Positions 16,072 through 33,388 of a DNA stretch of 64,000 bases are shown piece by piece. The DNA comes from Mycoplasmatota bacterium (lineage in GTDB: Bacteria > Bacillota_I > Bacilli_A > Izemoplasmatales > Hujiaoplasmataceae): positions 37,366 through 101,365 of the forward strand of contig JAQIBJ010000102.1 in assembly GCA_027859085.1 (NCBI GenBank), written 5' to 3'. Both the position numbers and the translations under genes were made by a program. Position 1 is the first letter of the stretch; the number at the start of each line of letters is the position of its first letter. The notes under the pieces were generated by a model that saw only the letters and a list, made by a program, of their open reading frames with translations, was not told the DNA's origin and searched no databases.

Positions 16072-17376
16072 ATGAATAAAGATAAAACGCAATTGCTCAC
16101 AGAAAATAAAAATTTGTTTGAAGAATCCATTAATGAATTTAGCGCCAAACCTTATGATATGGCTTCTGTGAACGAAATTATAAAAAGAAGTCAATACAAC
16201 AAAGGTAGTTTTTACTATCGTTTTAAAGATAAAAATGAGTTGTATATATCTTTATTAGATTATGTCTTTGTTCAACAGGTTGACTTGTTTAAAAAGTCAG
16301 GTTTTTCATTATTAACAAGTAATAATCCTAGAGAAGTACTTGTTTCTCTTTTCCAAAACTTGATAGATTTGTATCACTTTGATAAAAGGTATTATAATAT
16401 AGTAAGACTACTATATAACGAAGAGGATGATTTCATTCTTCAAACATTAGGTGATTCAGTTGGGTCATTATATGAAAGATTTAAGCTTAAACTTAAAAAA
16501 ATGACTGAAGTTAACGATTCTCAAATGATAATTATTGAATCTTTATATAAAAATCTTCCTGTTCTTAGTATAATTAATAGTAAGATCACAATTCAATCTA
16601 TTGTTGACCAAGTCATCAATGGTTCTAAAAACATGGCATCTGAACAAGAAACTGACAATTCTGACTTAATCACATTGATTGAAAAAAGTATTGAAGAACG
16701 TTTTAATTATATTGTTTTAGATGAAAAATATGATGATTTTGATAAGCGATGGTTTGATATCATCAAAGTTTCTCAAAATATTAAATTTTTGAAAAACAGA
16801 CTTAAATTTAAAATTTTTAGACTTAAATTAAATATAAAATCAATTTTAAACCGTTACAAGCATAAGCCTATATTTAATTATTTAGCTATTGAAAATTTGT
16901 TAAAATCAGACCTATACCCTAAAATAGTCAAAGATAAAGTATTATCAAACATAACTTATGGCCTAATTTATGCTATTATAGATTTAAGAGAATATATTCT
17001 TATCAATCAATCTTTAAAGTTTTTAAATGAAGAACAACGTGATATTTTATTTAACTACATATTGCCACTTAATGGAAAATTATCAAAAATAATCTTTATG
17101 GACCAATCAATCATTCTTAACAACAATAATATTGCATATTTCTATTATTATAACGAGTTTAGTGGTATTAAAAAATTACATGTAGATGGATTTAAAGATA
17201 AATACTATTTAAAAATTCATTGTCATTATAAGATTAACGATCAATTCTATCATGTTTATTACAATTCATTTCAATCGTTCTTGAGATTTTATCAGGACAA
17301 TGAAATTAATATAATTAAATTAGAAAGCACCCATGAATTACATTTAGGTGATTTAAGAGAGGTCGTGGAAGATTAA
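16072..17376 (+). CDS. TetR-type regulator fused to a C-terminal degenerate ABC-ATPase-like region
   Basis: Start refined to ATG 16072 (GGAGGT). N-term HTH: MASVNEIIKRSQYNKGSFYYRFKDKNELYISLLDYV. C-term: KVSQN..VLSNITYGLIYAIIDLREYILINQSLKFLNEEQRDILFNYI resembling Q-loop/signature/Walker B/D-loop spacing. Confidence 0.65.
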   Translation: MNKDKTQLLTENKNLFEESINEFSAKPYDMASVNEIIKRSQYNKGSFYYRFKDKNELYISLLDYVFVQQVDLFKKSGFSLLTSNNPREVLVSLFQNLIDLYHFDKRYYNIVRLLYNEEDDFILQTLGDSVGSLYERFKLKLKKMTEVNDSQMIIIESLYKNLPVLSIINSKITIQSIVDQVINGSKNMASEQETDNSDLITLIEKSIEERFNYIVLDEKYDDFDKRWFDIIKVSQNIKFLKNRLKFKIFRLKLNIKSILNRYKHKPIFNYLAIENLLKSDLYPKIVKDKVLSNITYGLIYAIIDLREYILINQSLKFLNEEQRDILFNYILPLNGKLSKIIFMDQSIILNNNNIAYFYYYNEFSGIKKLHVDGFKDKYYLKIHCHYKINDQFYHVYYNSFQSFLRFYQDNEINIIKLESTHELHLGDLREVVED

Positions 17377-18098
17377 TGAAAAAGATTATTGATACAGTGA
17401 AAAATGATTTTGTTAATTATAGAGATTATCATTTCCTTGAAATAATGTTTATTTTAACCTTGTTTTTCGGATTGTTAATGGGGTTAACAAGTTTAATGCC
17501 ACCGATTATCTATATTTACTTGTCGGTATTTGTTTTACCAGTAATCACTTTTTCTGTAAGTTTATTTATTGAAGCTCAACAAAAGACTGTATTACCTAAT
17601 GTTTTAGATGATAATCATCATCCTAGTTTATACGCCATAGGGAAAATTTTATCAGCAACACTAATTCAAATTATTCCTATGATATTTTATTTAATGGTTA
17701 TGATATTTGTTTTAGGTTTAAGTTTTAATATATTATTCTTTATGATTGTCTATATGCTATCAACTGTCATCCATATTATCATTGGTTTGTCTTTGTCAAT
17801 CATTGCAAAAACAGCTTATACATTATCTTTATCATATTTAGTCTACTTAATAGTTTTTTCAGTAATTCCAATATTATATTCATTTGATTTTTTTAGCGCT
17901 GATTTAAGTTATATATTAATTATTTCTCCAGCGTTTTTATCAGGTGTCTTATTTGAATCGCTTGTCAATCAGTATTCAATGATGGACCCATGGTTCAATT
18001 ATATTTCTTTAGGGTTAATTCTCACATACATAGTTGTACTGTTTATGTATGTTATTAAGCCCTTTATTGTTCACTACTTAAAAGAAAATTATGAATAA
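17376..18098 (+). CDS. ABC-2 type permease-like membrane protein
   Basis: Six hydrophobic segments, 240 aa; abuts the TetR/ABC-like gene. Confidence 0.65.
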   Translation: MKKIIDTVKNDFVNYRDYHFLEIMFILTLFFGLLMGLTSLMPPIIYIYLSVFVLPVITFSVSLFIEAQQKTVLPNVLDDNHHPSLYAIGKILSATLIQIIPMIFYLMVMIFVLGLSFNILFFMIVYMLSTVIHIIIGLSLSIIAKTAYTLSLSYLVYLIVFSVIPILYSFDFFSADLSYILIISPAFLSGVLFESLVNQYSMMDPWFNYISLGLILTYIVVLFMYVIKPFIVHYLKENYE

Positions 18099-18101
18099 AG
18101 T

Positions 18102-18132
18102 AAAAGCAACTCTATTTTTGAGAGTTGCTTTT
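18102..18132. terminator. Bidirectional intrinsic terminator
   Basis: AAAAGCAACTCT-ATTTTTG-AGAGTTGCTTTT. Confidence 0.85.
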
Positions 18133-18148
18133 TATTTATACTTTTATA

Positions 18149-18976
18149 TTATTCTATAATATTGTTTGAAACCAAAAAATTATAAACAACAAAGTTTGGG
18201 ATTGCAAAGGATGTCCCCCCGTCATTAATACCCCAGGTATTAACACCAATTAAATTACCATCAACATCAACTAAAGCGCCGCCACTTGATCCGTTGTATA
18301 TTTCAGCACTGTGTCTAATAACAATAAATTCAACATTTTCAATTTGAGTGATACCTTCATATATTCCAAACGATACTGTATTTGATAAGCTTAAAGGATT
18401 TCCTATGGCGAATACCAATTCATCGCTTTTGAATCGATAATCTAGTCTTTGAGTAATGTTAATTATCTCAACTTCAGTTCTGTTGTTTTTTTCGAATTTA
18501 ATGACCGCCAAATCTAACGTCTCACTTGAAAGAATAACAGAAGCACTTTGAGATTCACTATCTTCATAGGTTTTGACCTCATAAGTAGTTGGTCTTCCTT
18601 CACCATCTATGACATGATGATTGGTAATTGCGTAATAATGAGTGTCATCTTCCATAAAAACGAAACCTGAACCACTTTTAGTGTCATAACTAATGTTTTT
18701 AGTTATGGTTGAAGTTATTGCGACATTAGCTTTTATAATGTGTGCTTTTGTTTCCATTAAAACAGTATTATATTCATCAACATCATCTATACTATAAGTA
18801 GGGGATATATATATAGGTAATCTACTAAATTCATCATAATCATAAAAATCACCACTATATGTACCCTGTGAGACTTGGCTATTCGTTACGGGTATAAAGT
18901 AAGAACAATTACTAAGCCCTAATGTAAATATTATTAATAAAAGCAGTAAAATAAATCTTTTTCTTCGTTTTTTCAT
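18149..18976 (-). CDS. Trypsin-like (S1/DegP-type) serine protease lipoprotein
   Basis: Lipobox-like LSNC; triad His AITNHHVID, Asp LDLAVIKF, Ser NGSSGGALVDVDGNLIGVNTW. Confidence 0.85.
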   Translation of the reverse strand: MKKRRKRFILLLLLIIFTLGLSNCSYFIPVTNSQVSQGTYSGDFYDYDEFSRLPIYISPTYSIDDVDEYNTVLMETKAHIIKANVAITSTITKNISYDTKSGSGFVFMEDDTHYYAITNHHVIDGEGRPTTYEVKTYEDSESQSASVILSSETLDLAVIKFEKNNRTEVEIINITQRLDYRFKSDELVFAIGNPLSLSNTVSFGIYEGITQIENVEFIVIRHSAEIYNGSSGGALVDVDGNLIGVNTWGINDGGTSFAIPNFVVYNFLVSNNIIE

Positions 18977-19122
18977 AGATTATCACCTATTTTTCTACAA
19001 ATTACTATTTTTATAACTTCATTATACAATACTATGAATTTATTTTATAGTGATTAAGAAACTTATTTCTTTTTAAATTTTATAAAAATGATATAATAAA
19101 TATATTATTAGGAGGGGAATCC

Positions 19123-22100
19123 ATGGGCATTGAGAATATTGATTTTGCTTTGTATTTAAATATTTCGTTTTTTTCAGTATTGGCGATTGGTTTACTGTTT
19201 GGTTTATTAAAAGGATTTAGGAGATCACTATATACTTTTATTATTACCGTTATATTTATTGGTATATTCTTTTTAACGGTTAATCCTATTGTTACTTATC
19301 TATACAACCTTGAATTAAATTTCATTGGTGGGCTAGCAAGTAATGTATCTGGTGGTTTAAGTCAAGCAACAAGCGTCCAAGAAGCTGCAAGATTGTTTTT
19401 ATTTGAGCAATTTGGGGAAAACTTAGATACCAGTCAAACAAATCCAGAATTTTTAGCATTTGCAGATGCAATGGGTATGTTTGTTTTAAAAATCGTATAT
19501 ACTATCTTGTATTTTTCAATAATACAAGTTATTTATCGTTTAATTTTATTTATTGCTAGTTTATTTATTTTTAGAAAAGGAAGAAGTAAAAATAAAAAAG
19601 GAAAACGTGGCCGAGCTTTAGGCGGTGTTTTTGGTACATTAACAGCTGCAGTGAATGTCTTTGTAATGATTATAATGCTTAGTGGAATCATCAGTATTAG
19701 TGAGAGTTTGGTTTCTTTACAGGGAGAACCATTGGCTTATCAGATAGATCTAGACAGAAATACTAAACCTAACATTACAAGAATTGATCAATCACTCACG
19801 AAAATAGGAAAACTTAACCCTCAGCAAATGGCTGAAACAAATACTGCGTTAGATGATGCGATGGCATCATTAGAGACAATTATTACTGAATATAATAATA
19901 ATATCATTATTCAAGGGGTAAATGCTTTTCAAGTGGAAGACGAAGTAACAGGCGAAAATAAGAACTTAGCAATTATCTTGTTTGATGAGGTATTATCTAT
20001 TAATTATGAAAATGAGAGTATTGCATTAAGACAAGATTTGAGAACATTTACAGAAATTGCTGGAATATATTTAAACTCAGATTTTTATAATTCGAATGAT
20101 TTAGCTGATTTAAAGAGTCAAGAAGTTAATGATATGTTCTTGAAACTATCACAATCAAAATTAATCACAACCATTATACCAATTGGTATTGAAGTCGGTA
20201 TGGATTATATGGATGTTGATTTTGAATTAGAAAAAGAATTACTTTATGAAGATATTAATTGGCAAGAAGAGCTTGCACAACTTGGTGTTGTTGCTTCAAC
20301 AGGATTCATGATATTAGAAAATGCAGATGCATTTGATCCAGACACCGATTATAAAACCATTAGTTTAGATGGACAAGAAGTAGATGATTTGTTTACAGAA
20401 CTGTCTAACTCCAAACTAGTTGAATACGGAGCATATATCGCCATAGAACCTCTTTTAGAGGGCGCAACCCAGACTGTTCAGTCAGTTATCACAGTCCCAG
20501 AGGACATCGATTGGAAAGATGAATTCCAAGCATTCGGTATGATTGCGAATGAAATCTTATCAACTGGTTTAACAGTCGCTGATCTTGAAGGTGAAAATCA
20601 ACAAGATTTGTTGTTGTTATTCACAGAAGTTGATTTAACAGTTTTATTGAATTCTCAATTAACTTCAAACGCTTTGATTAATATATTTTCTGGAGAAGCT
20701 GAGATTGGATTTAATATCGAATTCTTAGTGATACCAAATGCGGATGATATTCAGTGGAATGATACAATTAATGAACTCACTGGAGAAGTGGCTCTCGCTG
20801 GAGAACTAAGAAATATTCTTACCAGTCTAAACATATTGGTCCAACAATTAGATAATATCGATATTGATAATCTTCAAATACAAGATTTATCAGGTATAAC
20901 TGACGATGAAATAGATCAAATGTTTGAATCTGTTATATTGGTTGCTTCGATTAGTCAGCTAATAACTGACTTAGATACTGGAGATTTTAACTTAGTGATT
21001 CCAGATCGTGTTTTAGATGAAAATCAATACATCATAAAAGAAGAAGTGACTAATATTTTTAAAGCATTAACTATGGCCTCAAGAGAAATACCTTGTGATG
21101 AAGGTAATACTGCTTGTGCTGATATAGGGTTCGATATGGATAAAGTGACTCAATTATCAACTGCGAACGTAGATACTCTGTTTTCTTCAGATATATTATA
21201 TGCAACTACTGCTTCAATGTTAACTGAGTTTGAAGAACTTATTATTCCTGAAGATATTAAGGAAGACTTACTAGTTGATTCTCAAATAGTAAGTTTACCA
21301 TCAAAAGAAGAAATTAAAAAAACATTCTCTGCAATTACTGCATTAGGCATTACTGATTTTCAAAATATTTCAATGAGCGGAGATTTATTGTTGAATTTAT
21401 CAGTTGATTCTGAGACTGATCCAACGACACTTGATACAACAAAAACAGATAAAATATTTGCTTCGGCAATATTACATGCAACTATATCATATTTTATACT
21501 TCAAGAAATAGATGTTACTCCTCCGGAAACATCGCCTTTAATCATCCCTTATTTTGCAGCTGAAAATTATGAAGGTACAACCTCTAATATTGTAAGATAT
21601 TATGATACTGCTGGAGAAGTAGATTATATTAGTTCTGAAGAATTAACTAATATAATTGCTGCAATATTAGTTTTAGATATTACGGATTTCAGTACATTTG
21701 ATACCATTGACATTAATACAATTATTTCTAATTCAGAAGTTATTCTTGATTCTGCTATTTTGCATGCAACATTTTCTGATCAAATTATGAATTTAAATGG
21801 ATCTGGTTTAGTCATTCCAAGTAAAGATGAATTAGATAATGATATAGTTATCATTTCCGGAGATATATTAGAAGAACAAACTACATATATTATTAAGTCC
21901 GAGTTAATTGCTACTTTAGATTCATTGGAAGTTCTTGAGATTACAGACTTTAATAACCCAACAATAGATGTTTCTGTATTAAACAAATTGGCTAAAGATT
22001 CTGCACCAACTGAACTAGATGAGGATAAAACAGCGTTACTATTTTCTTCGAAGATATTACATGCAACTATTACTGATTTCATTCTACAAGAAGCAGATGG

Positions 22101-25100
22101 TACTGCAACCGCTAGTTTAGTATTGCCTTATTATGCTTCAGAAAACTATGAATCAACAACCTCAAATGTTGTAAGAATTACCAATAGTTTAGATGAGGAA
22201 TACATTTCGATCAATGAACTTAACGCTTTAATAGCAGCGTTCTTGGTTTTAGATATAACTGATTTTACTGAAGTTGAAGCTTTAGATTTTACTAAAATCA
22301 CATCTAATTCAACTCTCATTTTAAAATCTGCTATATTACATGCAACAATTTCAAAACAAATGTTGGATTTAAATACAAGTGAAAGTTTAGTTATACCTAG
22401 TTTAGATGACCTTAATCAGCCTTTGAGAGTTACAACAGGTATTTTACCTGAAGAACAAACTGAATATATTATTAAAGATGAAATAACAGCGACATTAGAT
22501 GCACTTGATATTTTAGGAATCACTGATTTTAATAATGTGAACATAGATGCAAGTGTATTAACCAATTTAGCTGATGATACCGATTCAACACTCTTAGATA
22601 CTAATAAATCTGATACTTTATTGTCATCAAAGATTGCTCATGCAACTTTATCAAAAGTAATTTTGGATGCAGCTGCGCCTGATGAAATCACTGGTGAAAC
22701 TGATATTATAGTACCTTTTGTTGCAACAGAGAACTATGCAACTGGTAATGGTAATGTAAGGTTTGTGACTACAGATGATGATATTTATATCATAAAAGAA
22801 GAGTTAACCAATTTATTTAGAGCAATATTAATTTTAGATATAACTGATTTTACTCAAGTAAGCGGATTGCAACTATCAACAATCGCTACACATAAGGATA
22901 TTGTTTTAGATTCTGCTATATTACATGCAACAATTTCAGATCAAGTTATTGAATTAGGTAATTCTGAGAATTTAGTATTACCAGAACTTGATTTAAATAA
23001 TGATCCAATTTTAGTGACTAAAGGTGATGTTTTAATAGAAGAAACAGATTATATCATTAAAGATGAATTGAAGAATACTTTAGATGCTTTAGATATTTTA
23101 GATATCACAGACTTTAATAATGTCACCATTAATGCATCTATTTTACAAAAACTAGCCGATGATACCGATTCTACTTTACTTGATCCTACAAAATCAGCTA
23201 CGTTGTTATCATCAAAAATTGCTCATGCAACCATTTCTAAAGTTATTTTAGACGCTGCAGAAGCAGACCCAATTACTGGTGATACTAATCTAGTTGTTCC
23301 ATATTATGCAACAGGGAACTATACAGGAACATCAAGTGATGTCGTAAGATTTACAACAACGGCTTTGGATTACTACATAACTGAGTTAGAACTTACTGAA
23401 TTATTTGAAGCTATTTTAGTATTAGACATAGATGATTTTAATCAAGTTGAGGGATTATTATTATCTGATATTATTGATAATTCTACAACATTATTAGAAT
23501 CTGCAGTATTACATGCAACGATTTCAAAACAAGTTATTGAATTAAATGAAATGAGTTCAGATATATTAATACCTGAAACTAATGAACTTGGTAATTCAAT
23601 AATATTAGAGGATACATTAGGTGAAGGTGCAGAATTTATTACTAAAGTTGAATTAGAAGCAACTTTTTCAGCGATGGATTTATTGGGAATGACAGATATT
23701 GATTCTTTCGATGGAAACATTAGTTTAAGTCTTTTCTTTAAATCAAGTTATCCAATAGAGTATGCTGATAATCAAGATACATTACTTGCTTCATCAATTA
23801 TGCAAGCAACTATTTCGGATAAATTAGCAAATTTAGAAACATCTAATATGTTAATTATTCCTGGAGTTGATGATTTAAATCAACCTATAGAAGCTACTTA
23901 TGGTACTGATTATTTTGTACTTAAAACAGAAATCAAATCATTAATCAATGTTTTAGACATATTAGGTGTTAGTGATATTGAAACATTCGACGGAGCCATT
24001 AATTTAGGGTTATTCTTTGAATCAACTAACCCAACGACTTATCAAGACAATCAAGACACATTACTTGCGTCTTCAAGTATGCAAGCTACTATTTCAGATA
24101 AACTAGCTGACTTAGAATTAGGCGGTCAACTAATTATTCCGGCTGTAAATGTTTTAAGCCAAGCCGTAGAAGTCACTCATAATACTGACTATTTCATTTA
24201 TGATGATGATATTAAAGCTTTGATTAATGTCATGGATTTATTTGGAGTCACTGATATTGATTCATTTGATGGTGGTATTGATTTAGGTTTATTCTTTGAA
24301 TCAACAAATCCAACAACATATCAAAACAACCAAGACTTATTGATGGATTCATCAATTATGCATGTGACTTTGTCATCTAAATTGAGCAATTTAGAAACAT
24401 CTGGAGAATTAATTATCCCATCTGTTGATGTATTAAATCAAGCAGTTGAAGTGACAAATGGTGCTGATTATTATGTTTATGCATCAGAAATTAAATCATT
24501 AATCAATGCTATGGATGTTTTTGGAGTCACTGATATTGACACATTTAATGGAGAGATTTCAATAAGTAATTTCTCTTCAGAAACAAACCAAGATATATTA
24601 CTTGCTTCAGCCATTATGCATATGACTGTTTCAGATCAAATTCTGAGTAATACTACAACGACAGTTCCTGAAAAATCACTTGAAAGTAACTTAACAAACA
24701 TTGATATTCGCATTATTCAAAGTGGTAATGAATTTATATTGGGTGATGAGATTAAAGCATTGATCAATGTGATGAACTTAATTAGTACAGGTAACATCGA
24801 TCAATTTAGTGGAGAGATCACACTCAGCTTATTCGATGGCGATACAAACCCTGCAAATCAAGCAACATTATTGAGTTCAGCAATCATGCATGCAACTGTA
24901 TCTAAGCAAGTACTTGATTTAGATACTGCAAATACATTGGTTGCCCCAGAAGAAGATATTGATTCAGCGATTATAAGAAAAATTGTTATTGGTACTTATA
25001 TCAATACCGAATACTTAGTTAAATCAGAAATTGCTGCATTGATTGATGGTCTAAATGCAATGGGCTTAGGTAGCCAAAGCATTAGTTCATTTGCTGGTAC

Positions 25101-26622
25101 TATCGGTATTAGTGCTTTATCAACTGAAACTGTACAAAATGAAGTTCTTGCATCTGCGACATTACATGCAACCATTTCAAAACAAGTTATTGATTTAGAC
25201 ACTTCAAACACACTGGTTGCACCTAATAAAACTTTAGATGCATTAGACAATGAAATATTTATCAGATTAACAACAGGTAGTACTTTTACAACTGAATTTT
25301 TAATTAAAGATGAAGTAAAAGCTTTAATTGATGGTTTAAATATCTTAGGATTAGGTGGACAAAACATTAGTGACTTCGATGGTAATTTAAGCATTTCAAC
25401 ATTAGACACTAATCAAAAACAAACTGATGTGTTAGCTTCTGCAGTCTTGCATGCGACCTTCTCTGATAATCTAATTGTTATGGATGATCAAATATTATTT
25501 GTACCTAGCTATAGTGAATTAGGAGAAATACAAGCATATCGCATTAAATACATTGTTGACACCACTGATTTTATGATTAAAGACGAAATTAAAGCAATTA
25601 TTAATGCATTTACTGCTATGGGTTATTTAAGTCTTGATGATGTTGATTCAAGTTTTACATTAGATACATTCTTTGATAATCCTAATATTGTATTAGCGTC
25701 TTCATCAATACAAGCAACAGTATCAAATAAATTATTAAATGATACTGGAGGATCGTTAATCATTCCAGACGATGATATTAATGAAAATCCGGATAAAGTC
25801 ATTCGAATTGTACAAACAGATGTGACTTACATTGAATTAGTCGAATTAAAAGCTTTAATTGCTGGATTAGAGTCATTAGGCTTAACTAACTTTACTGGCA
25901 TGACATTTACACCGGCGAATATATTTGCTGCTGACTTTAACATTGTATTAACATCAGCTTCACTACAAGCCACTATTTCAGATACAATTCTAGCTGGTGC
26001 TGTAGATGAAAACAATATTACAAGTAGTAGTGATTTAATTATTCCTACATACTTTAGAGAAACAATTACTGTTGATTCAGTGAGTGCTACTCATATTGAA
26101 AAAACTGAGTTAAATAATCTATTAACTGGTTTAGAAGAATTAGGAGTTACATCATTTAGTGGTGGTGTAGACCCAACAATTGTAACTGGATTATCATCAA
26201 CTCAATTGAATACTATTTTAAATAGTGGTTCACTACATGTAACTATTGATAACATGTTACAAGCAAATGCTACTCTTACAATTCCAACATTTGTCTTAGT
26301 TGATTTATATAACATTGTTGGTTTGATAGAAAAAACTGAAATCGTTAACTTCATCGCATCAATAAATGCACTTGGTGAAACAGATGTTACAAATGCATCA
26401 TTCGATTTCGCAACAATTGCAGGATTAACACCTACTGAACAAAATATTGTATTAGAGTCAGCGATTGTTAGAGCAACCATTACACCTGATGTAGAGACAG
26501 CTAAAACAACTGGTGATATGTTAAATCCTTTAAATCCTTACACTGGTACTTGGGCATACGAAACCGATGGAACAACACTTACAAAACCTAGTATCCAAGG
26601 TTTTATTAATCACGTTTACTAA
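19123..26622 (+). CDS. Giant CvpA-like membrane protein with long tandem-repeat extracytoplasmic region
   Basis: N-term LFGLLKGFRRSLYTFIITVIFIGIFFL and further TMs (CvpA-like); then ~20 repeats around [SA]-x-[IL]-[LM]-[HQ]-AT-[IV]-S ... L-[VI]-[IV]-P ... [YF]-[IV]-[IK]-x-[ED]-[EL]-[IL] ... [IV]-[TS]-D-[FI]. Confidence 0.85.
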   Translation: MGIENIDFALYLNISFFSVLAIGLLFGLLKGFRRSLYTFIITVIFIGIFFLTVNPIVTYLYNLELNFIGGLASNVSGGLSQATSVQEAARLFLFEQFGENLDTSQTNPEFLAFADAMGMFVLKIVYTILYFSIIQVIYRLILFIASLFIFRKGRSKNKKGKRGRALGGVFGTLTAAVNVFVMIIMLSGIISISESLVSLQGEPLAYQIDLDRNTKPNITRIDQSLTKIGKLNPQQMAETNTALDDAMASLETIITEYNNNIIIQGVNAFQVEDEVTGENKNLAIILFDEVLSINYENESIALRQDLRTFTEIAGIYLNSDFYNSNDLADLKSQEVNDMFLKLSQSKLITTIIPIGIEVGMDYMDVDFELEKELLYEDINWQEELAQLGVVASTGFMILENADAFDPDTDYKTISLDGQEVDDLFTELSNSKLVEYGAYIAIEPLLEGATQTVQSVITVPEDIDWKDEFQAFGMIANEILSTGLTVADLEGENQQDLLLLFTEVDLTVLLNSQLTSNALINIFSGEAEIGFNIEFLVIPNADDIQWNDTINELTGEVALAGELRNILTSLNILVQQLDNIDIDNLQIQDLSGITDDEIDQMFESVILVASISQLITDLDTGDFNLVIPDRVLDENQYIIKEEVTNIFKALTMASREIPCDEGNTACADIGFDMDKVTQLSTANVDTLFSSDILYATTASMLTEFEELIIPEDIKEDLLVDSQIVSLPSKEEIKKTFSAITALGITDFQNISMSGDLLLNLSVDSETDPTTLDTTKTDKIFASAILHATISYFILQEIDVTPPETSPLIIPYFAAENYEGTTSNIVRYYDTAGEVDYISSEELTNIIAAILVLDITDFSTFDTIDINTIISNSEVILDSAILHATFSDQIMNLNGSGLVIPSKDELDNDIVIISGDILEEQTTYIIKSELIATLDSLEVLEITDFNNPTIDVSVLNKLAKDSAPTELDEDKTALLFSSKILHATITDFILQEADGTATASLVLPYYASENYESTTSNVVRITNSLDEEYISINELNALIAAFLVLDITDFTEVEALDFTKITSNSTLILKSAILHATISKQMLDLNTSESLVIPSLDDLNQPLRVTTGILPEEQTEYIIKDEITATLDALDILGITDFNNVNIDASVLTNLADDTDSTLLDTNKSDTLLSSKIAHATLSKVILDAAAPDEITGETDIIVPFVATENYATGNGNVRFVTTDDDIYIIKEELTNLFRAILILDITDFTQVSGLQLSTIATHKDIVLDSAILHATISDQVIELGNSENLVLPELDLNNDPILVTKGDVLIEETDYIIKDELKNTLDALDILDITDFNNVTINASILQKLADDTDSTLLDPTKSATLLSSKIAHATISKVILDAAEADPITGDTNLVVPYYATGNYTGTSSDVVRFTTTALDYYITELELTELFEAILVLDIDDFNQVEGLLLSDIIDNSTTLLESAVLHATISKQVIELNEMSSDILIPETNELGNSIILEDTLGEGAEFITKVELEATFSAMDLLGMTDIDSFDGNISLSLFFKSSYPIEYADNQDTLLASSIMQATISDKLANLETSNMLIIPGVDDLNQPIEATYGTDYFVLKTEIKSLINVLDILGVSDIETFDGAINLGLFFESTNPTTYQDNQDTLLASSSMQATISDKLADLELGGQLIIPAVNVLSQAVEVTHNTDYFIYDDDIKALINVMDLFGVTDIDSFDGGIDLGLFFESTNPTTYQNNQDLLMDSSIMHVTLSSKLSNLETSGELIIPSVDVLNQAVEVTNGADYYVYASEIKSLINAMDVFGVTDIDTFNGEISISNFSSETNQDILLASAIMHMTVSDQILSNTTTTVPEKSLESNLTNIDIRIIQSGNEFILGDEIKALINVMNLISTGNIDQFSGEITLSLFDGDTNPANQATLLSSAIMHATVSKQVLDLDTANTLVAPEEDIDSAIIRKIVIGTYINTEYLVKSEIAALIDGLNAMGLGSQSISSFAGTIGISALSTETVQNEVLASATLHATISKQVIDLDTSNTLVAPNKTLDALDNEIFIRLTTGSTFTTEFLIKDEVKALIDGLNILGLGGQNISDFDGNLSISTLDTNQKQTDVLASAVLHATFSDNLIVMDDQILFVPSYSELGEIQAYRIKYIVDTTDFMIKDEIKAIINAFTAMGYLSLDDVDSSFTLDTFFDNPNIVLASSSIQATVSNKLLNDTGGSLIIPDDDINENPDKVIRIVQTDVTYIELVELKALIAGLESLGLTNFTGMTFTPANIFAADFNIVLTSASLQATISDTILAGAVDENNITSSSDLIIPTYFRETITVDSVSATHIEKTELNNLLTGLEELGVTSFSGGVDPTIVTGLSSTQLNTILNSGSLHVTIDNMLQANATLTIPTFVLVDLYNIVGLIEKTEIVNFIASINALGETDVTNASFDFATIAGLTPTEQNIVLESAIVRATITPDVETAKTTGDMLNPLNPYTGTWAYETDGTTLTKPSIQGFINHVY
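21472..26520 (+). repeat. Degenerate in-frame tandem repeats (unit about 234-303 nt; about 580-nt two-unit higher-order repeat in the 5' part)
   Basis: HATIS-box positions 21472, 21760, 22057, 22336, 22636, 22921, 23221, 23509, 23800, 24079, 24358, 24616, 24886, 25162, 25447, 25708, 25963, 26233, 26467. Confidence 0.85.
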
Positions 26623-26638
26623 AATAAGTTAAACTATT

Positions 26639-26666
26639 AGGAGCACTCAATTTGAGTGCTCCTTTA
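26639..26666 (+). terminator. Intrinsic terminator after giant gene 1
   Basis: AGGAGCACTCA-ATT-TGAGTGCTCCT then TTAATAAT. Confidence 0.75.
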
Positions 26667-26743
26667 ATAATATTGTATATATATTCATTGTTTTTTAAAT
26701 TTGTAGTATAATATATATAATATAAGTAGTAGGAGGAAAAAAT

Positions 26744-29700
26744 ATGATTCTAAATATTATGGCTTCAATTGATTTGTTATTTTATTTTATATTAGGTATC
26801 GCCATCTTCTTTGGCTTTTTAAGAGGTTTTAAAAAATCTTTATTTACATTTGTTGTGATGGCTATTTTCTATATTTTATTCTTTGTCACCTTAAACGCGG
26901 CTGTCAATATGATTTGGTCGATGAATTTAAGTTTCTTAGGTGGCATGTTTGGAAACATTGATCCAGGTTTATCTTCATTCCAATCATTTGAAAGTGATTA
27001 CCAATTAATTATTCAAACATTTTTTAATAATAGTTTTGATTTTACTCAACCCGAAATGGATTTATTGGCTGTTGGAATCATGCAATTTGCTGTTAAAATA
27101 ATATGGGCAATTGTCTATTTTACTGTTATATTATTACTATACAAAATAATTACTGGTATCATTCGTATGATATTTATTAAAGCTGGTAAACCTAAAAAAA
27201 GACTTTTCGGGTCTATCGTTGGTGGTTTGAACGGTGCAATGGCAGTGTTTGTTACCTTAATTGTATTGGGGGGAACGGTATCATTTATTGAAAGTGTTAC
27301 AATTTTAATGGATAATGAACCTGAACAACTTGCTAATAACTTAGTATATGAGCCTAGGACGACGATACTAGAGTTAAATCAATCTATCATTCCTGAAGAT
27401 AATGTTATTGAATTGGCTGAAACAGATCCTGTTGTTGATCCAGCTATGGTTGATACCATGAATGAATTGGTTGATAATTATCATAAGAATATCATTGTTA
27501 AACTCGCAAATACCATTAAAGTAGATTCTACTTTTAATGCAACTGAAAAAGTGCCTCTTCATATTGATTTATTTGATAGAGTCTTATCATTTAAATATGG
27601 AGATGATGAAATAGCATTAAGACATGAAATATCAATCTTTATGAACGCATATAATGTTATACAAGCCTCTGAATATGGTAATACTCAGAAAATAACTGAT
27701 ATTAAAGGTGAAGATATACGAGAAGCATTTACATATTTAGAATCATCTATATTATTGCCAACAGCTTTACCAATTGGTATTAAATATTACAGTAATCAAA
27801 ATGATATTAATTTATCAGTAACTGATGATGAGTTATTCAATTACAATTACACAACTGAAATTGAAAGATTGTCGAATATTCTAGCTGGTGTTTTTGATAT
27901 ATTAAATGAACAAGAAACATCAATCGATGAAGACGGTAATGAAGTAGTTATAGATGGTGCTTGGGTAAGAGATGTCTTTACAGATGTATCTGAATCTCGT
28001 GTTGTCTTATTGGCCACTGAATCAATATTGGTCCCAATGATAGAAGAAGGTAATGGTGAATCAGAGATTTTACAAATCATTGCACTTCCTAATCAAATAT
28101 CTTGGGAAGATGAATATGTAGCAATCGGTAATATCTTAGCAGAAATGATTGACGCTGGGATTTCTATACAAGACATTGAATCAACTGATTTAAACACTGT
28201 CTTAGAAACCTTCGCAAGTATTGATGCAAGTGTTATCGTCGGGTCAAAACTGATTTCTGAAGGGTTAATCAATATATTAAGCGGAGAAACATCTTTAGAA
28301 GGTTTAGATGCTTTAACCGTTCCACAAGATATTACATGGAGAAGTACTGATACTGAAACAGGTGAATTAGAATATGTATTGGTTGCTATACAAGCATTAA
28401 TAAATGAAATGGATAACTTAGATTTTGATAATGTTGATATTGATTTATTAACAGGACTTGATGACGAAACAATCGTTGCACTATTGGATTCATATATTAT
28501 TAGAGCGACCATGTCTGATCAAATTAATACGTTTGAACTTGGAACTTATCAGTTAGTAATACCTGATAATACAATTGATTCACAAGGTTATTATATAAAA
28601 GCAGAATTAGACGCTTTGGTTGAAAGTATCCAGTTATTAGCTGATGTAGATGGTTTTAGTATAGATACATTGTATACATTAACTGATAGTGATCTAGATA
28701 TTTTATTTGCATCTAGCATCATTCAAGCAACTGTTTCAGATATTGTTTTGGATCAAGCAGCATTATCAGCTGGAGCAACGGCAACATTAATCGTTCCAGC
28801 GTCTGTTAGAGAAAATATTGTTGTGAATACACAAACAATTGAACAAATTGAGTTGGATGAATTAAAAGCGATGATCAATGCCTTAAATACTTTAAATATC
28901 ACGGATCTTGATGGTGGTATTGATTCATCAATTATTACATCTGTTTCATCTAGTGATATAAATACCATCATTGAAAGTGAATCATTACATGCGACAATTT
29001 CAAATCTAATCGATACATTTGAATTAGGTGTTTATCAGTTAGTGATTCCTGACAATACAAAGGATTCACAAGGTTATTATACAGGAACTGAATTAGTTGC
29101 TATAATTGAAGGTATACAATTGTTGTCAGATGTTGATAACTTTAGTATTGAAATCTTGTATACATTAAGTAATAATAATTTAGATACATTATTTACTTCA
29201 AATATCATTCAAGCAACCATCTCAGATATTATTTTAGATCAAGCTACCTTGACGACAACCACACCACCGACATTAACCGTTCCAGGTACTTTAAGAGAAA
29301 ACATCGTTGTCGATACACTAACCATGGAACAAATTGAATTGGCAGAATTAAAAGCGATTATCACTGCTTTGAACACATTAGGTACAAGTAACTTTGATGG
29401 TGGTATTAATCCATTAGACATCACTTCATTGTCAACAGGTGACTTAACTACTATTTTAAATAGTGGCTCATTACATGCAACCATTGATGGTATGTTACAA
29501 GATAATAGTGCATTAATTAAACCTGATTTCATATTAAGTGATTTATATGGTTTCACTGATGTTGTTCAAAAAGCTGCTATCATAAACTTTATTGAAGCAG
29601 CACAAGAATTGGGTGAAACTGATATTAGTAGTGCTAGTTTAAACTTTGCTACAATTGCTACTTTAACAGCTTCTGAGCAAGCAACAATTCTTGAATCAGC

Positions 29701-29854
29701 AATTGTTAGAGCAACCATTACACCAGATGTTGAAACAGTTGTCACCAATGCTGCACTCATTGATCCTTATACAGGTACTTGGAATTATGAAACAGTTGGA
29801 AACGTTACTTTAACACAAGCAAGTATTCAAGGTGTTATTGATCAATATTATTAA
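26744..29854 (+). CDS. Second CvpA-like tandem-repeat membrane protein (paralogue of the 2499-aa protein)
   Basis: FFGFLRGFKKSLFTFVVMAIFYILFFVTLNAAV; six HATIS-type boxes; C-terminus ESAIVRATITPDVET..DPYTGTWNYETVGNVTLTQASIQGVIDQYY matches the first protein. Confidence 0.85.
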   Translation: MILNIMASIDLLFYFILGIAIFFGFLRGFKKSLFTFVVMAIFYILFFVTLNAAVNMIWSMNLSFLGGMFGNIDPGLSSFQSFESDYQLIIQTFFNNSFDFTQPEMDLLAVGIMQFAVKIIWAIVYFTVILLLYKIITGIIRMIFIKAGKPKKRLFGSIVGGLNGAMAVFVTLIVLGGTVSFIESVTILMDNEPEQLANNLVYEPRTTILELNQSIIPEDNVIELAETDPVVDPAMVDTMNELVDNYHKNIIVKLANTIKVDSTFNATEKVPLHIDLFDRVLSFKYGDDEIALRHEISIFMNAYNVIQASEYGNTQKITDIKGEDIREAFTYLESSILLPTALPIGIKYYSNQNDINLSVTDDELFNYNYTTEIERLSNILAGVFDILNEQETSIDEDGNEVVIDGAWVRDVFTDVSESRVVLLATESILVPMIEEGNGESEILQIIALPNQISWEDEYVAIGNILAEMIDAGISIQDIESTDLNTVLETFASIDASVIVGSKLISEGLINILSGETSLEGLDALTVPQDITWRSTDTETGELEYVLVAIQALINEMDNLDFDNVDIDLLTGLDDETIVALLDSYIIRATMSDQINTFELGTYQLVIPDNTIDSQGYYIKAELDALVESIQLLADVDGFSIDTLYTLTDSDLDILFASSIIQATVSDIVLDQAALSAGATATLIVPASVRENIVVNTQTIEQIELDELKAMINALNTLNITDLDGGIDSSIITSVSSSDINTIIESESLHATISNLIDTFELGVYQLVIPDNTKDSQGYYTGTELVAIIEGIQLLSDVDNFSIEILYTLSNNNLDTLFTSNIIQATISDIILDQATLTTTTPPTLTVPGTLRENIVVDTLTMEQIELAELKAIITALNTLGTSNFDGGINPLDITSLSTGDLTTILNSGSLHATIDGMLQDNSALIKPDFILSDLYGFTDVVQKAAIINFIEAAQELGETDISSASLNFATIATLTASEQATILESAIVRATITPDVETVVTNAALIDPYTGTWNYETVGNVTLTQASIQGVIDQYY

Positions 29855-29873
29855 TGATTCAATATATAGTTAC

Positions 29874-29903
29874 GGGAATATCTTCTGATATTCCCTTTTT
29901 TTT
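29874..29903 (+). terminator. Intrinsic terminator
   Basis: GGGAATATC-TTCT-GATATTCCC-TTTTTTTT. Confidence 0.92.
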
Positions 29904-29978
29904 CTTTAAAATTTGATATATAAGTTGTATAATTAAAAGATATAAATAAAATTCAAAACAAGGAGTCTACATAACTAT

Positions 29979-31625
29979 ATGAAAAAATTACTAAGTATAT
30001 TAGTCGTACTATCTTTATCTTTAGGGTTTTTTGGATGTAATAATTTTGTTGAAATTACAACTGAGCCACAAACAACTGTTGAGATAACCACAGAGATATC
30101 ATCAACAAATGTTCCAACCACTGAAGTAACAACTGTTGAACCTACAACAAGTCTTTCAACTACTGAAGAAACAACTGTTGAACCTACTACAGAAGTAACA
30201 ACCACCGAAGTAAACACAACTATTGAACCTACTACAGAAGATGAGTTTGTGACTATAAATTTATTTTCAATTAATGATTTCCATGGTGGTGCATATACAG
30301 ATATCAGTTTGATTTCTGGTATAGGTGCTTATATAAACTCTGTTCAGGGTCATAAAATTGCTGTTTCAAATGGAGACATATTCCAAGGCACTGCTATTTC
30401 TAATTATTATCACGGAGAAATTCTTGTTGATATATTAAATGAAGCTGGCTTTAAGGGGTTTGTGATTGGTAATCATGAATTTGATTGGGGATTAGACGCT
30501 ATTGAGAACTATAATGATGGTGATGAAACTAATGGAGAATTTAATCAACCAATTCTAGCTGCTAATATTGTTTATGAAGATACATTAGAACCATTAGATT
30601 TTACACAGCCTTATTTTATTGAAGAATTTGAAGGTGTTAGAATTGGTGTTATCGGTATGATGGGACAATTGTCAAATTCTATTGCTGCATCAAGAACTGA
30701 AAATATTATATTTTTAGATCCTGTTCTAACAGCGGCTAAGTATGCTAAAGAATTAAGAGAAGAACAAGATGTAGATGTTGTTGTATTGTACATTCATGAT
30801 AGTTCATGGAATAACGATGAATTTGCAGCCTTAAGTGGTTCTGAAAGAATAGACGCGATGTTTAATGGTCATTCTCATCAAGACGAAGGAACAGAGATTT
30901 ATCGAGGTGGTTTACCAATGCCATATGCACAAATGAATAACTTTGACACATCACTTGTTAGAATTCAATTAACTTATGATTTAAATCTTGATATGCTTAC
31001 AGACTATTCAATTAGTGAAATATCAACAATATTATTAGAAAGTATTAATGATAATCAAATCGATTTAGTGATTGAAGAGTATGCGACTAACCTTGACTAT
31101 GTTAATTTCATTGGTGAAGTCTTAACCACTTCAGAAGGTGATTTTTATAGAGGTGATTTATCTGAATGGGGCGCATCAGTGATAAGAGATTATGCAGGTG
31201 TTGATATTGGCGCAACCAATTCAGGTGGTTTCAGAGTATCAATGGAAGCAGGAGAACTTACTATGGGTGAATTAATCACTATTTATCCATTTGATAACAT
31301 TATTAAAACATCAGAAATGACTGGCCAACAAATCCAGAACTTCTACATAGAAATCATGAATGGTGGCGGAGATATCGTATTTGATGATGGATTGTTTTAT
31401 AATTACAGTACAAATCGACTTGAAATCAATGGCAATCCTATTGTATTAAATCAAACCTATACTGTAGGCGCTGTTGATTACATCTTTGATAAAACTGATT
31501 ATGATTTTATTGAGGGTCAAAACATTACACAAACCATTTATTTTATGAGAGATTTATTAGCAGATGATTTAAGAAATGAAACTGATTTGTTTAATCCTTA
31601 TGATGGATCAAACTATCCTGAATAA
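29979..31625 (+). CDS. Secreted 5'-nucleotidase / UshA-family metallophosphatase lipoprotein
   Basis: Lipobox LGFFGC; Thr/Glu-rich linker; LFSINDFHGG, SNGDIFQGT, GNHEFDWG, FNGHSHQ motifs. Confidence 0.92.
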   Translation: MKKLLSILVVLSLSLGFFGCNNFVEITTEPQTTVEITTEISSTNVPTTEVTTVEPTTSLSTTEETTVEPTTEVTTTEVNTTIEPTTEDEFVTINLFSINDFHGGAYTDISLISGIGAYINSVQGHKIAVSNGDIFQGTAISNYYHGEILVDILNEAGFKGFVIGNHEFDWGLDAIENYNDGDETNGEFNQPILAANIVYEDTLEPLDFTQPYFIEEFEGVRIGVIGMMGQLSNSIAASRTENIIFLDPVLTAAKYAKELREEQDVDVVVLYIHDSSWNNDEFAALSGSERIDAMFNGHSHQDEGTEIYRGGLPMPYAQMNNFDTSLVRIQLTYDLNLDMLTDYSISEISTILLESINDNQIDLVIEEYATNLDYVNFIGEVLTTSEGDFYRGDLSEWGASVIRDYAGVDIGATNSGGFRVSMEAGELTMGELITIYPFDNIIKTSEMTGQQIQNFYIEIMNGGGDIVFDDGLFYNYSTNRLEINGNPIVLNQTYTVGAVDYIFDKTDYDFIEGQNITQTIYFMRDLLADDLRNETDLFNPYDGSNYPE

Positions 31626-31627
31626 AA

Positions 31628-31660
31628 AAACAAGGACAATTAAATGTCCTTGTTATTTTT
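31628..31660. terminator. Bidirectional intrinsic terminator
   Basis: AACAAGGACA-ATTAA-ATGTCCTTGTT. Confidence 0.85.
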
Positions 31661-32728
31661 ATCATCATACATGCGTTGATCAGCAATATTTAATAAAGCA
31701 TCTAAGTTGTTACCTTCTGTAGGGAATTCAGCATAACCAATACTAACACCAAAGAATGGTTGATTATAATGAAAATGATGATTGATATCCTTTTTAGTGG
31801 TCTCTATTGAAACTTCTTCACGAAGTGTAATCACAATAAATTCGTCACCAGATATTCTATAAACACCAACTCGAGTCTTGAAGGTTTTTCTTAATGCTTC
31901 AGAGAACTGAACCAAATAATAATCACCATTCATGTGACCAAATTGGTCATTAATATCTTTAAAACGATTTAAGTCCATATAATATAAAATATAGGGAGAT
32001 TCTTGTTGAGAAATTTCCTTAAAATCTTTATAAAGCGCCATTCTATTTTTTAATTTAGTTAGATGATCAGTATAAACTAAATTTGTTAATACCTTATTAT
32101 AACTAGAGGTACTGATGATTCTGTAGATAAAATAATAAGAAGCCATAATCATCATAATCATGGAAATATAAAAGATTAATAATGTATAGATAGAATCAAA
32201 ATCAATTAAGAATCTTAAAATATAGATGACGATAAAGTTAAGAATGGGAACAAAAACTGCCGTTTTAAATAACAAATAATCAATTGACGCGAGTACTTTT
32301 TTCAAAGTCTGTTTAATGAAAAAGATGATGATTGGTGTTGATATTAAAAATATCACCACTTGCGTCCACAAAAATGCATATTGATCATTATGACCACTTG
32401 TAATCATAAAGTAGTGGTAAACAAGGCCATTCACTAATAATGTGTGTGAGAATGAAAATGCCATAATGATAATTAACGTATGCAACTTATTTTCATACAA
32501 ATATATAAAAATAAGTAAGTATGTCCAAGAAAAAAGAATGATTAATATACTTGGAACTGAATCTATAAATATTAGAGGTAAGATATTTCTCAAGAATACA
32601 ATTATAATTAAAGAATACAAAATGATTATAAAATATGTCTTATATCGATTAAATTTTCTTTTTGCGACGTATTCAGTTGTTACAATATTAATAAGTAATA
32701 TCAAAATAAAAGAAAAAAGTTGTACCAT
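31640..32728 (-). CDS. Membrane diguanylate cyclase (GGDEF domain, SGDEF signature)
   Basis: Several N-term TMs; DHLTKLKNRMALYKDF, YYMDLNRFKDINDQFGHMNGDYYL, VYRISGDEFIVI, SIGYAEFPTEG. Confidence 0.92.
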   Translation of the reverse strand: MVQLFSFILILLINIVTTEYVAKRKFNRYKTYFIIILYSLIIIVFLRNILPLIFIDSVPSILIILFSWTYLLIFIYLYENKLHTLIIIMAFSFSHTLLVNGLVYHYFMITSGHNDQYAFLWTQVVIFLISTPIIIFFIKQTLKKVLASIDYLLFKTAVFVPILNFIVIYILRFLIDFDSIYTLLIFYISMIMMIMASYYFIYRIISTSSYNKVLTNLVYTDHLTKLKNRMALYKDFKEISQQESPYILYYMDLNRFKDINDQFGHMNGDYYLVQFSEALRKTFKTRVGVYRISGDEFIVITLREEVSIETTKKDINHHFHYNQPFFGVSIGYAEFPTEGNNLDALLNIADQRMYDDKNNKDI

Positions 32729-32806
32729 ATGTCCACCTCATAATTAAATTATACTACTAAATGTAATTTGGTAGTTATAAAATTAAAAAAATACAAAAAT
32801 TTGTGC

Positions 32807-33388
32807 TTATGCTTGATCTAAAGGGTTTATATTATAATCAATAACTTTGATTTCTTGATCAAAACTTAATATATTAATTGAACAATTGGTTAATACTGTA
32901 TCATAATCAAAATTAGGAAGATTTTGAACCAAAATGGCTTTAATGACATGTGAATGAGCAATCATTAATACTTGTTTATGTTTATGGCTATTGTCATTAA
33001 AAAATAATTTAAAAAATATTTTTACTCTTTTTTCAATTTGTTCATCTGTTTCCATCCCTGGAATTAAACCTTCATGCACTGCCTCAAAATAACCTTCTTC
33101 TATACGATTACCATCAAAATCGCCAAAATCTCTTTCGATTAGTTCATCTTCAATATGGGTTTTAATCTTTAAACCCATTGAGTCTTTAATGATCTTAGCT
33201 GTCTCAATCGCTCTATCTAAAGGGGAAGACACACAATAATCAAAGTCTAAATTTAGAGATTTTAAATATTTTGCAGTTTGTTTGGCTTGTAATCTACCTG
33301 TTTCATTTAAAGGATTATCCGTTCTACCTTGGATAATCGCATTTTTATTTGCATCAGTTTGTCCGTGTCTTATTATATATATTCTCAT
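32807..33388 (-). CDS. Histidine phosphatase (phosphoglycerate mutase-like)
   Basis: MRIYIIRHGQTDANKNAIIQGRTDNPLNETG; MIAHSHVIKA. Confidence 0.88.
   Translation of the reverse strand: MRIYIIRHGQTDANKNAIIQGRTDNPLNETGRLQAKQTAKYLKSLNLDFDYCVSSPLDRAIETAKIIKDSMGLKIKTHIEDELIERDFGDFDGNRIEEGYFEAVHEGLIPGMETDEQIEKRVKIFFKLFFNDNSHKHKQVLMIAHSHVIKAILVQNLPNFDYDTVLTNCSINILSFDQEIKVIDYNINPLDQA

Follow-up and report, generated by a model that had tools for sequence, protein, structure and literature searches.

Organization of the locus

We have analysed a 64,000-nt stretch of DNA, referred to here as the window, and observed within it two adjacent genes, A and B, that encode a long and a short membrane-anchored repeat protein, respectively. 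Their features and neighbours are listed in Table 1. The reading frame of gene A is uninterrupted, begins with ATG and carries an AGGAGG-type ribosome-binding site immediately to its 5' side; with its 22-unit array, the 2499-aa repeat protein reported in a preliminary description of this DNA is therefore real. Hydropathy analysis placed 4 hydrophobic segments within aa 6-200 of A, followed by a long ectodomain. The membrane-proximal part of this ectodomain (aa 200-526) is the best-conserved extracellular part in comparisons of A with B, with invariant columns at N260, LFD286-288, S345, P353, E383, P459, E467, S511, N520 and G524. Gene B, which lies directly 3' of A, has an identical layout of anchor, repeats and homologous C-terminus. 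The preliminary description had mentioned neither B, nor the divergent HtrA-like lipoprotein protease, nor the class-wide protein family to which A and B belong.

Table 1. Positions in the window of genes A and B, their component parts and adjoining features
Feature	Position	Strand	Basis
HtrA/trypsin-like serine protease lipoprotein, divergent neighbour	18149..18976	-	Pfam/NCBIfam, motifs, synteny
Gene A, membrane-anchored giant repeat protein, 2499 aa	19123..26622	+	Frame, hydropathy, repeat profile
A, four-TM anchor, remotely CvpA-like, aa 6-200	19138..19722	+	Hydropathy, Pfam, profile comparison, positive-inside rule (N-out/C-out)
A, conserved membrane-proximal ectodomain, aa 200-526	19720..20700	+	A/B comparison
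A, repeat array, 22 units, aa 535-2497	20725..26613	+	Repeat profile
A, mid-array, units 4-17, lineage-specific expansion	21439..25386	+	Unit-by-unit comparison
A, conserved distal units 18-22 and C-terminal tail (tip)	25417..26619	+	Unit-by-unit comparison
11-bp inverted repeat, perfect, in the A-B interval	26640..26662	+	Direct reading
Gene B, 1036-aa paralogue with four-TM anchor as in A, 7-8 repeats and homologous tip	26744..29854	+	Frame, repeat profile, model, tree
B, duplication of two units within the gene: 486 bp, 1.9 copies at 74% matches	28546..29485	+	DNA repeat scan; units 2-3 vs 4-5
Terminator-like hairpin with T8 tail, 3' of B	29874..29895	+	Terminator scan
UshA-like 5'-nucleotidase, downstream neighbour	29979..31625	+	Pfam/NCBIfam; kept downstream of B in the bacterial family

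The inverted repeat between the 2 genes (GGAGCACTCAATTTGAGTGCTCC) is followed by three T alone. It appears terminator-like with a weak tail, and was absent from the output of the terminator scan. An operon comprising A, B and the nucleotidase gene was considered and rejected on account of this hairpin and of the T8 terminator that follows B. No RNA elements were found in the segment from 17000 to 33000.

Repeat units and their predicted fold

An iterated repeat profile of 77 positions matched 22 units in A, within aa 520-2497, of which 21 are essentially full length and the last is partial. The units scored 17.9-87.4 bits, compared with a best chance score of 6.7 bits when the ectodomain was shuffled 200 times, and they recur with a period of 78-98 aa. 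Both the number of repeats and the length given in the preliminary description, about 20 over about 2200 aa, were right, and all of the repeat motifs that it quoted are present in A. The proline of L-V-I-P and the glutamate of YIxKxEL are invariant in the unit, and the serine of LLxS is conserved at 98%. Searches of A and B against Pfam, NCBIfam and PHROGs matched no adhesin repeat or other known domain. Of 107 repeat windows, 14 gave matches to EF-hand_6 (best 3.5e-5), and we read these as the helix start I-x-x-x-E-L, a helix that is preceded in the model by a beta hairpin. An EF-hand or calcium-binding repeat was rejected because the matches are partial and weak.

Four consecutive units of A, modelled with a 107-row repeat alignment, gave a confident prediction (pLDDT 95.8, pTM 0.92) in which each unit consists of helix-helix-beta hairpin-helix; this was the fold prediction for 3-4 repeats that the preliminary description had proposed. 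In a Foldseek search with this model, the best E-values were 1.3 against PDB and 0.99 against viral models, neither of which is a match; the predicted shape of the unit thus appears to match nothing in these 2 libraries, as judged by a method that may overlook repeat folds. The full-length model of B, built from 16 sequences, had a mean pLDDT of 75.6, with 4 long TM helices at 5-28, 32-59, 103-144 and 153-189 and with regular repeat units of pLDDT about 85-92, and it retrieved generic alpha-solenoids alone (E >= 0.02). Its pTM was just 0.49, so that a rod shape across the whole chain is one that we infer.

Relation of the anchor to CvpA, and membrane topology

CvpA family proteins are normally short and membrane-bound. 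The preliminary description had called the N-terminus of A CvpA-like; this stood as a remote homology and failed as a Pfam match. Protein A did not match Pfam Colicin_V (PF02674), and B did so at E 0.0016 with 18.9 bits, short of the curated cut-off of 29.3 bits. Sub-threshold matches were obtained for 10 of 20 N-termini of the protein family (best 1.9e-6), and 2 relatives exceeded 30 bits solely when neighbouring pieces were summed. A profile-profile comparison (hhalign) of the family N-terminus with true CvpA proteins that these genomes also encode gave E 1.2e-5 and a probability of 81% over 100 columns, an alignment restricted to TM3-TM4. The 2 groups have 4 TM helices in the same order, with TM3-TM4 homologous by profile comparison, and they differ in that CvpA is short and stands alone, whereas the anchors of A and B and of their relatives lead into repeat regions, predicted to be extracellular, that span about 800 to several thousand aa. 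As an ordinary CvpA is encoded separately in the same genome (a 264-aa frame), A is not "the" CvpA. On these comparisons, we regard the link between the A/B anchor and CvpA as real but remote.

Two side observations concern other CvpA-related frames. A third, weak match to the N-terminal profile occurs in the same genome, within a 301-aa frame (G000:C78:2184-2579; E 0.0043), and the matched 132 aa had no match in a Pfam search. Also, in family f3, which comprises relatives from the same order (L113-L115, L122 and L129), proteins headed by CvpA have about 780-820 aa, and in family f2 (L130-L132) they have 400 aa, as compared with the 245-aa CvpA of the window's own bacterial family; here again, a CvpA-type domain carries a long extension.

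Among 20 homologues, the median number of lysine plus arginine residues was 3 in the loop between TM1 and TM2, 6 in that between TM3 and TM4, and 0 in the TM2-3 loop and N-terminus. By the positive-inside rule, this distribution would make the TM1-2 and TM3-4 loops cytoplasmic and place the repeats of A and B outside the cell. In the same homologues, the ectodomain segment 200-520 contains 9.5 lysine plus arginine against 60 aspartate plus glutamate residues; the ectodomain of A as a whole has a net charge of -283 and 2 cysteines, and that of B a net charge of -111.

Conserved ends and variable middle of the array

We compared the units of A with each other and with those of its nearest orthologue, from strain zrk2. 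In register, units 2-3 of the 2 proteins are 85% and 66% identical and units 18-21 are 53-71% identical, whereas the middle units of A resemble other units of A rather than their zrk2 counterparts. For 11 A proteins, the best match lay within the same protein in 1277 of 1460 cases for middle units (87%), but in only 111 of 326 for the first 3 units (34%) and 126 of 440 for the last 4 (29%). Strict in-register matches were 52% for the first 3 units, 14% for the middle and 28% for the last 4, this last value being counted strictly from the C-terminus across all genera. Conservation of the tip thus appears less rigid than that of the base. The middle of A is made of a two-unit module in units 4-10 and a one-unit module in units 12-14. 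Self-likeness in the middle, together with conserved ends, indicates that middle units have been gained and lost while the base and, less strictly, the tip were kept; the mid-array would then be a length-variable spacer between the two. The base is also common to A and B, as are the last 2 units (55-65% identical). The 486-bp duplication within B is younger than the A repeats.

Neighbouring genes

The divergent gene to the 5' side of A encodes a lipoprotein with the lipobox LSNC and intact H/D/S protease motifs (NHHVI, DLAV and GSSGG), which scored 80 bits against Trypsin_2 (cut-off 27.6). Such a gene adjoins the giant gene at all 21 loci of the bacterial family that have adequate upstream flank. 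In the mycobacterial protein MarP, a serine protease is joined to a TM domain of CvpA type, and we therefore considered an envelope quality-control system in which the rod serves as a substrate platform for the protease, as a MarP-like pair split over 2 genes. The constant adjacency, the intact catalytic motifs and the MarP precedent are consistent with such a pair. However, the protease here is encoded by a separate divergent gene in one bacterial family only, and the part fused to the CvpA-type domain is a repeat rod; at the loci compared from other families of the order or class, and from Haloplasma, the HtrA-like gene is not beside the giant gene, and the giant protein accordingly does not need it. 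Gene order in the bacterial family is, moreover, broadly conserved in any case. We consider this explanation unlikely.

To the 3' side of B, several genera share genes for the 5'-nucleotidase, a histidine phosphatase and a pyrimidine nucleoside phosphorylase, and relatives are reported to degrade DNA (PMC8397711). A and B might accordingly capture nutrients for the nucleotidase and the nucleoside salvage genes, but we find this very improbable: the strongly acidic ectodomain is ill-suited to direct nucleic acid binding, the T8 terminator stands between B and the nucleotidase gene, and these neighbours were not retained at the loci compared in other families. A GGDEF (diguanylate cyclase) gene lies between the nucleotidase and histidine phosphatase genes (window 31640-32728, minus strand); it occupies the same place in one other genome (G004, L154) and was not seen there in other genera. 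Since the wider gene order is conserved too, functional links of A and B to any of their neighbours are suggestive only.

Distribution of the protein family and cell-wall status

The preliminary description had proposed a search for homologues of like architecture, and such proteins occur across one class of bacteria. Within the window's own bacterial family, they were found in 24 of 25 genomes, with a tandem long/short pair throughout. A and B form separate, well supported clades in the tree, and the single-copy Haloplasma-type genes fall on the A side; these positions show that the A/B duplication is old, and the 2 genes are nonetheless still adjacent in the bacterial family. Named carriers include Izemoplasmatales MAGs, strain zrk2 and one Haloplasma contractile MAG. 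Of 199 genomes sampled across the class, 64 matched the N-terminal profile (E <= 1e-3), 56 matched the repeat profile (E <= 1e-5), and at least 74 matched one or the other (a union counted by hand). Complete members have open frames of between roughly 850 and 6056 aa. All matches in a sample of the whole phylum were confined to this one class (Bacilli/Mollicutes-type). A mobile or phage origin was rejected, as there was no PHROG or plasmid match and chromosomal synteny is conserved.

Two further groups of loci may be mentioned. Three f7 genomes (G149, G211 and G167; loci L095, L096 and L097) encode related four-TM frames of 4250-6056 aa; at L095 and L097, in genomes with PBP transpeptidases, a four-TM neighbour of 1000-1100 aa makes another long/short pair. 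Two Acholeplasma-type genomes of 1.5 Mb that lack a transpeptidase (G106, L144; G127, L143) encode shorter members of 1477-1643 aa. Small genes come after these members in a similar long series, and this locus may be syntenic as well.

Taking presence or absence of a PBP transpeptidase (PF00905) to denote walled or wall-less cells, we observed the protein family in at least 53 of 106 class genomes without the enzyme and at least 21 of 93 with it (hand counts). These figures bear on whether the rods form a surface coat or scaffold, standing side by side to stiffen or shield the cell and partly replacing a wall or S-layer. That most carriers are wall-less is consistent with a coat, as are the near-universality of the protein family among wall-less Izemoplasmataceae relatives, a low-cysteine, very acidic ectodomain, and the wall-less relative X. 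coldseepsis zrk13, which shows no wall in TEM (PMC8397711). The walled carriers led us to reject any strict rule of wall replacement and also argue against a coat, while the association with wall status is confounded by phylogeny; further, neither a conserved tip nor the wide length range (1,600-3,200 aa) is necessary for a coat. We regard a coat as possible but rather doubtful.

Proposed role and comparison with known systems

The reading that we favour, as on balance somewhat probable, is that A and B are membrane-anchored extracellular rods, one long and one short, each with a conserved base and tip and an adjustable shaft, and that they act as tethers. The four-TM, remotely CvpA-like domain would hold each rod in the plasma membrane; the conserved membrane-proximal domain would form the base, stacked rigid alpha-alpha-beta-hairpin-alpha repeats the shaft, and the last 4 or 5 units with the C-terminal tail the conserved tip. 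Changes in copy number in the mid-array would set the reach, with specific work done by base and tip, and the rod most likely keeps the tip off the membrane, where it would meet a surface, an adjacent cell or some other component of the cell surface. The surface stalk or scaffold suggested in the preliminary description agrees with the topology, the repeat structure, and the conserved ends and variable middle. The adhesin that it also suggested is conceivable; no adhesin repeat family among those searched matched. Presence in nearly all genomes of the bacterial family points to a core function and not to an accessory adhesin, and near-universality among free-living relatives favours a general surface role over a host-specific adhesin. 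It is, however, equally compatible with a structural coat, which counts against the tether reading.

In anatomy, the nearest analogue appears to be Gli349, the leg protein of Mycoplasma mobile, which has 3183 aa, an N-terminal TM segment, 18 repeats of about 100 aa and a foot (PMC7052211, PMC4937208). The likeness is one of design: giant size, an N-terminal anchor, repeat number and size (about 18-22 of about 100 aa), a distal C-terminal foot and a wall-less cell. Yet Gli349 has a single TM segment where A and B have a four-TM CvpA-like anchor, and no motor is known for A and B. The A/B profiles gave no match in the mycoplasma-type, small-genome families that were listed, f6 and f17. That A and B are legs of a Gli349-style gliding or surface-motility machine is, with no motor genes seen adjoining them and the cultured relative zrk13 reported non-motile (PMC8397711), a very improbable explanation.

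Repeat adhesins of walled Gram-positive bacteria (Ebh-type) are giant, repetitive surface rods, as A and B are predicted to be. Unlike these, A and B have no match to a Pfam/NCBIfam adhesin repeat and no C-terminal sortase motif, and are anchored N-terminally through 4 TM segments.

In literature accessible without subscription, we found no paper on this protein family or on CvpA in these bacteria, and A and B apparently belong to a large, conserved surface protein family that is undescribed. Its predicted repeat unit is confident and has no match among solved structures (PDB), and the family ties CvpA, a domain that is poorly understood, to a function outside the cell. As the family is present in genomes that look cultivable, these predictions are directly testable. 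Tentatively, and with less confidence than we attach to the rods themselves, we propose that it may be an ancient, near-core envelope component, class-wide and probably including cultured Acholeplasma, in which rods as large as about 6000 aa, with a new repeat fold, a CvpA-derived anchor and adjustable length, would organise the wall-less surface. The family would thereby address a poorly known field, the surface organisation of free-living wall-less bacteria.
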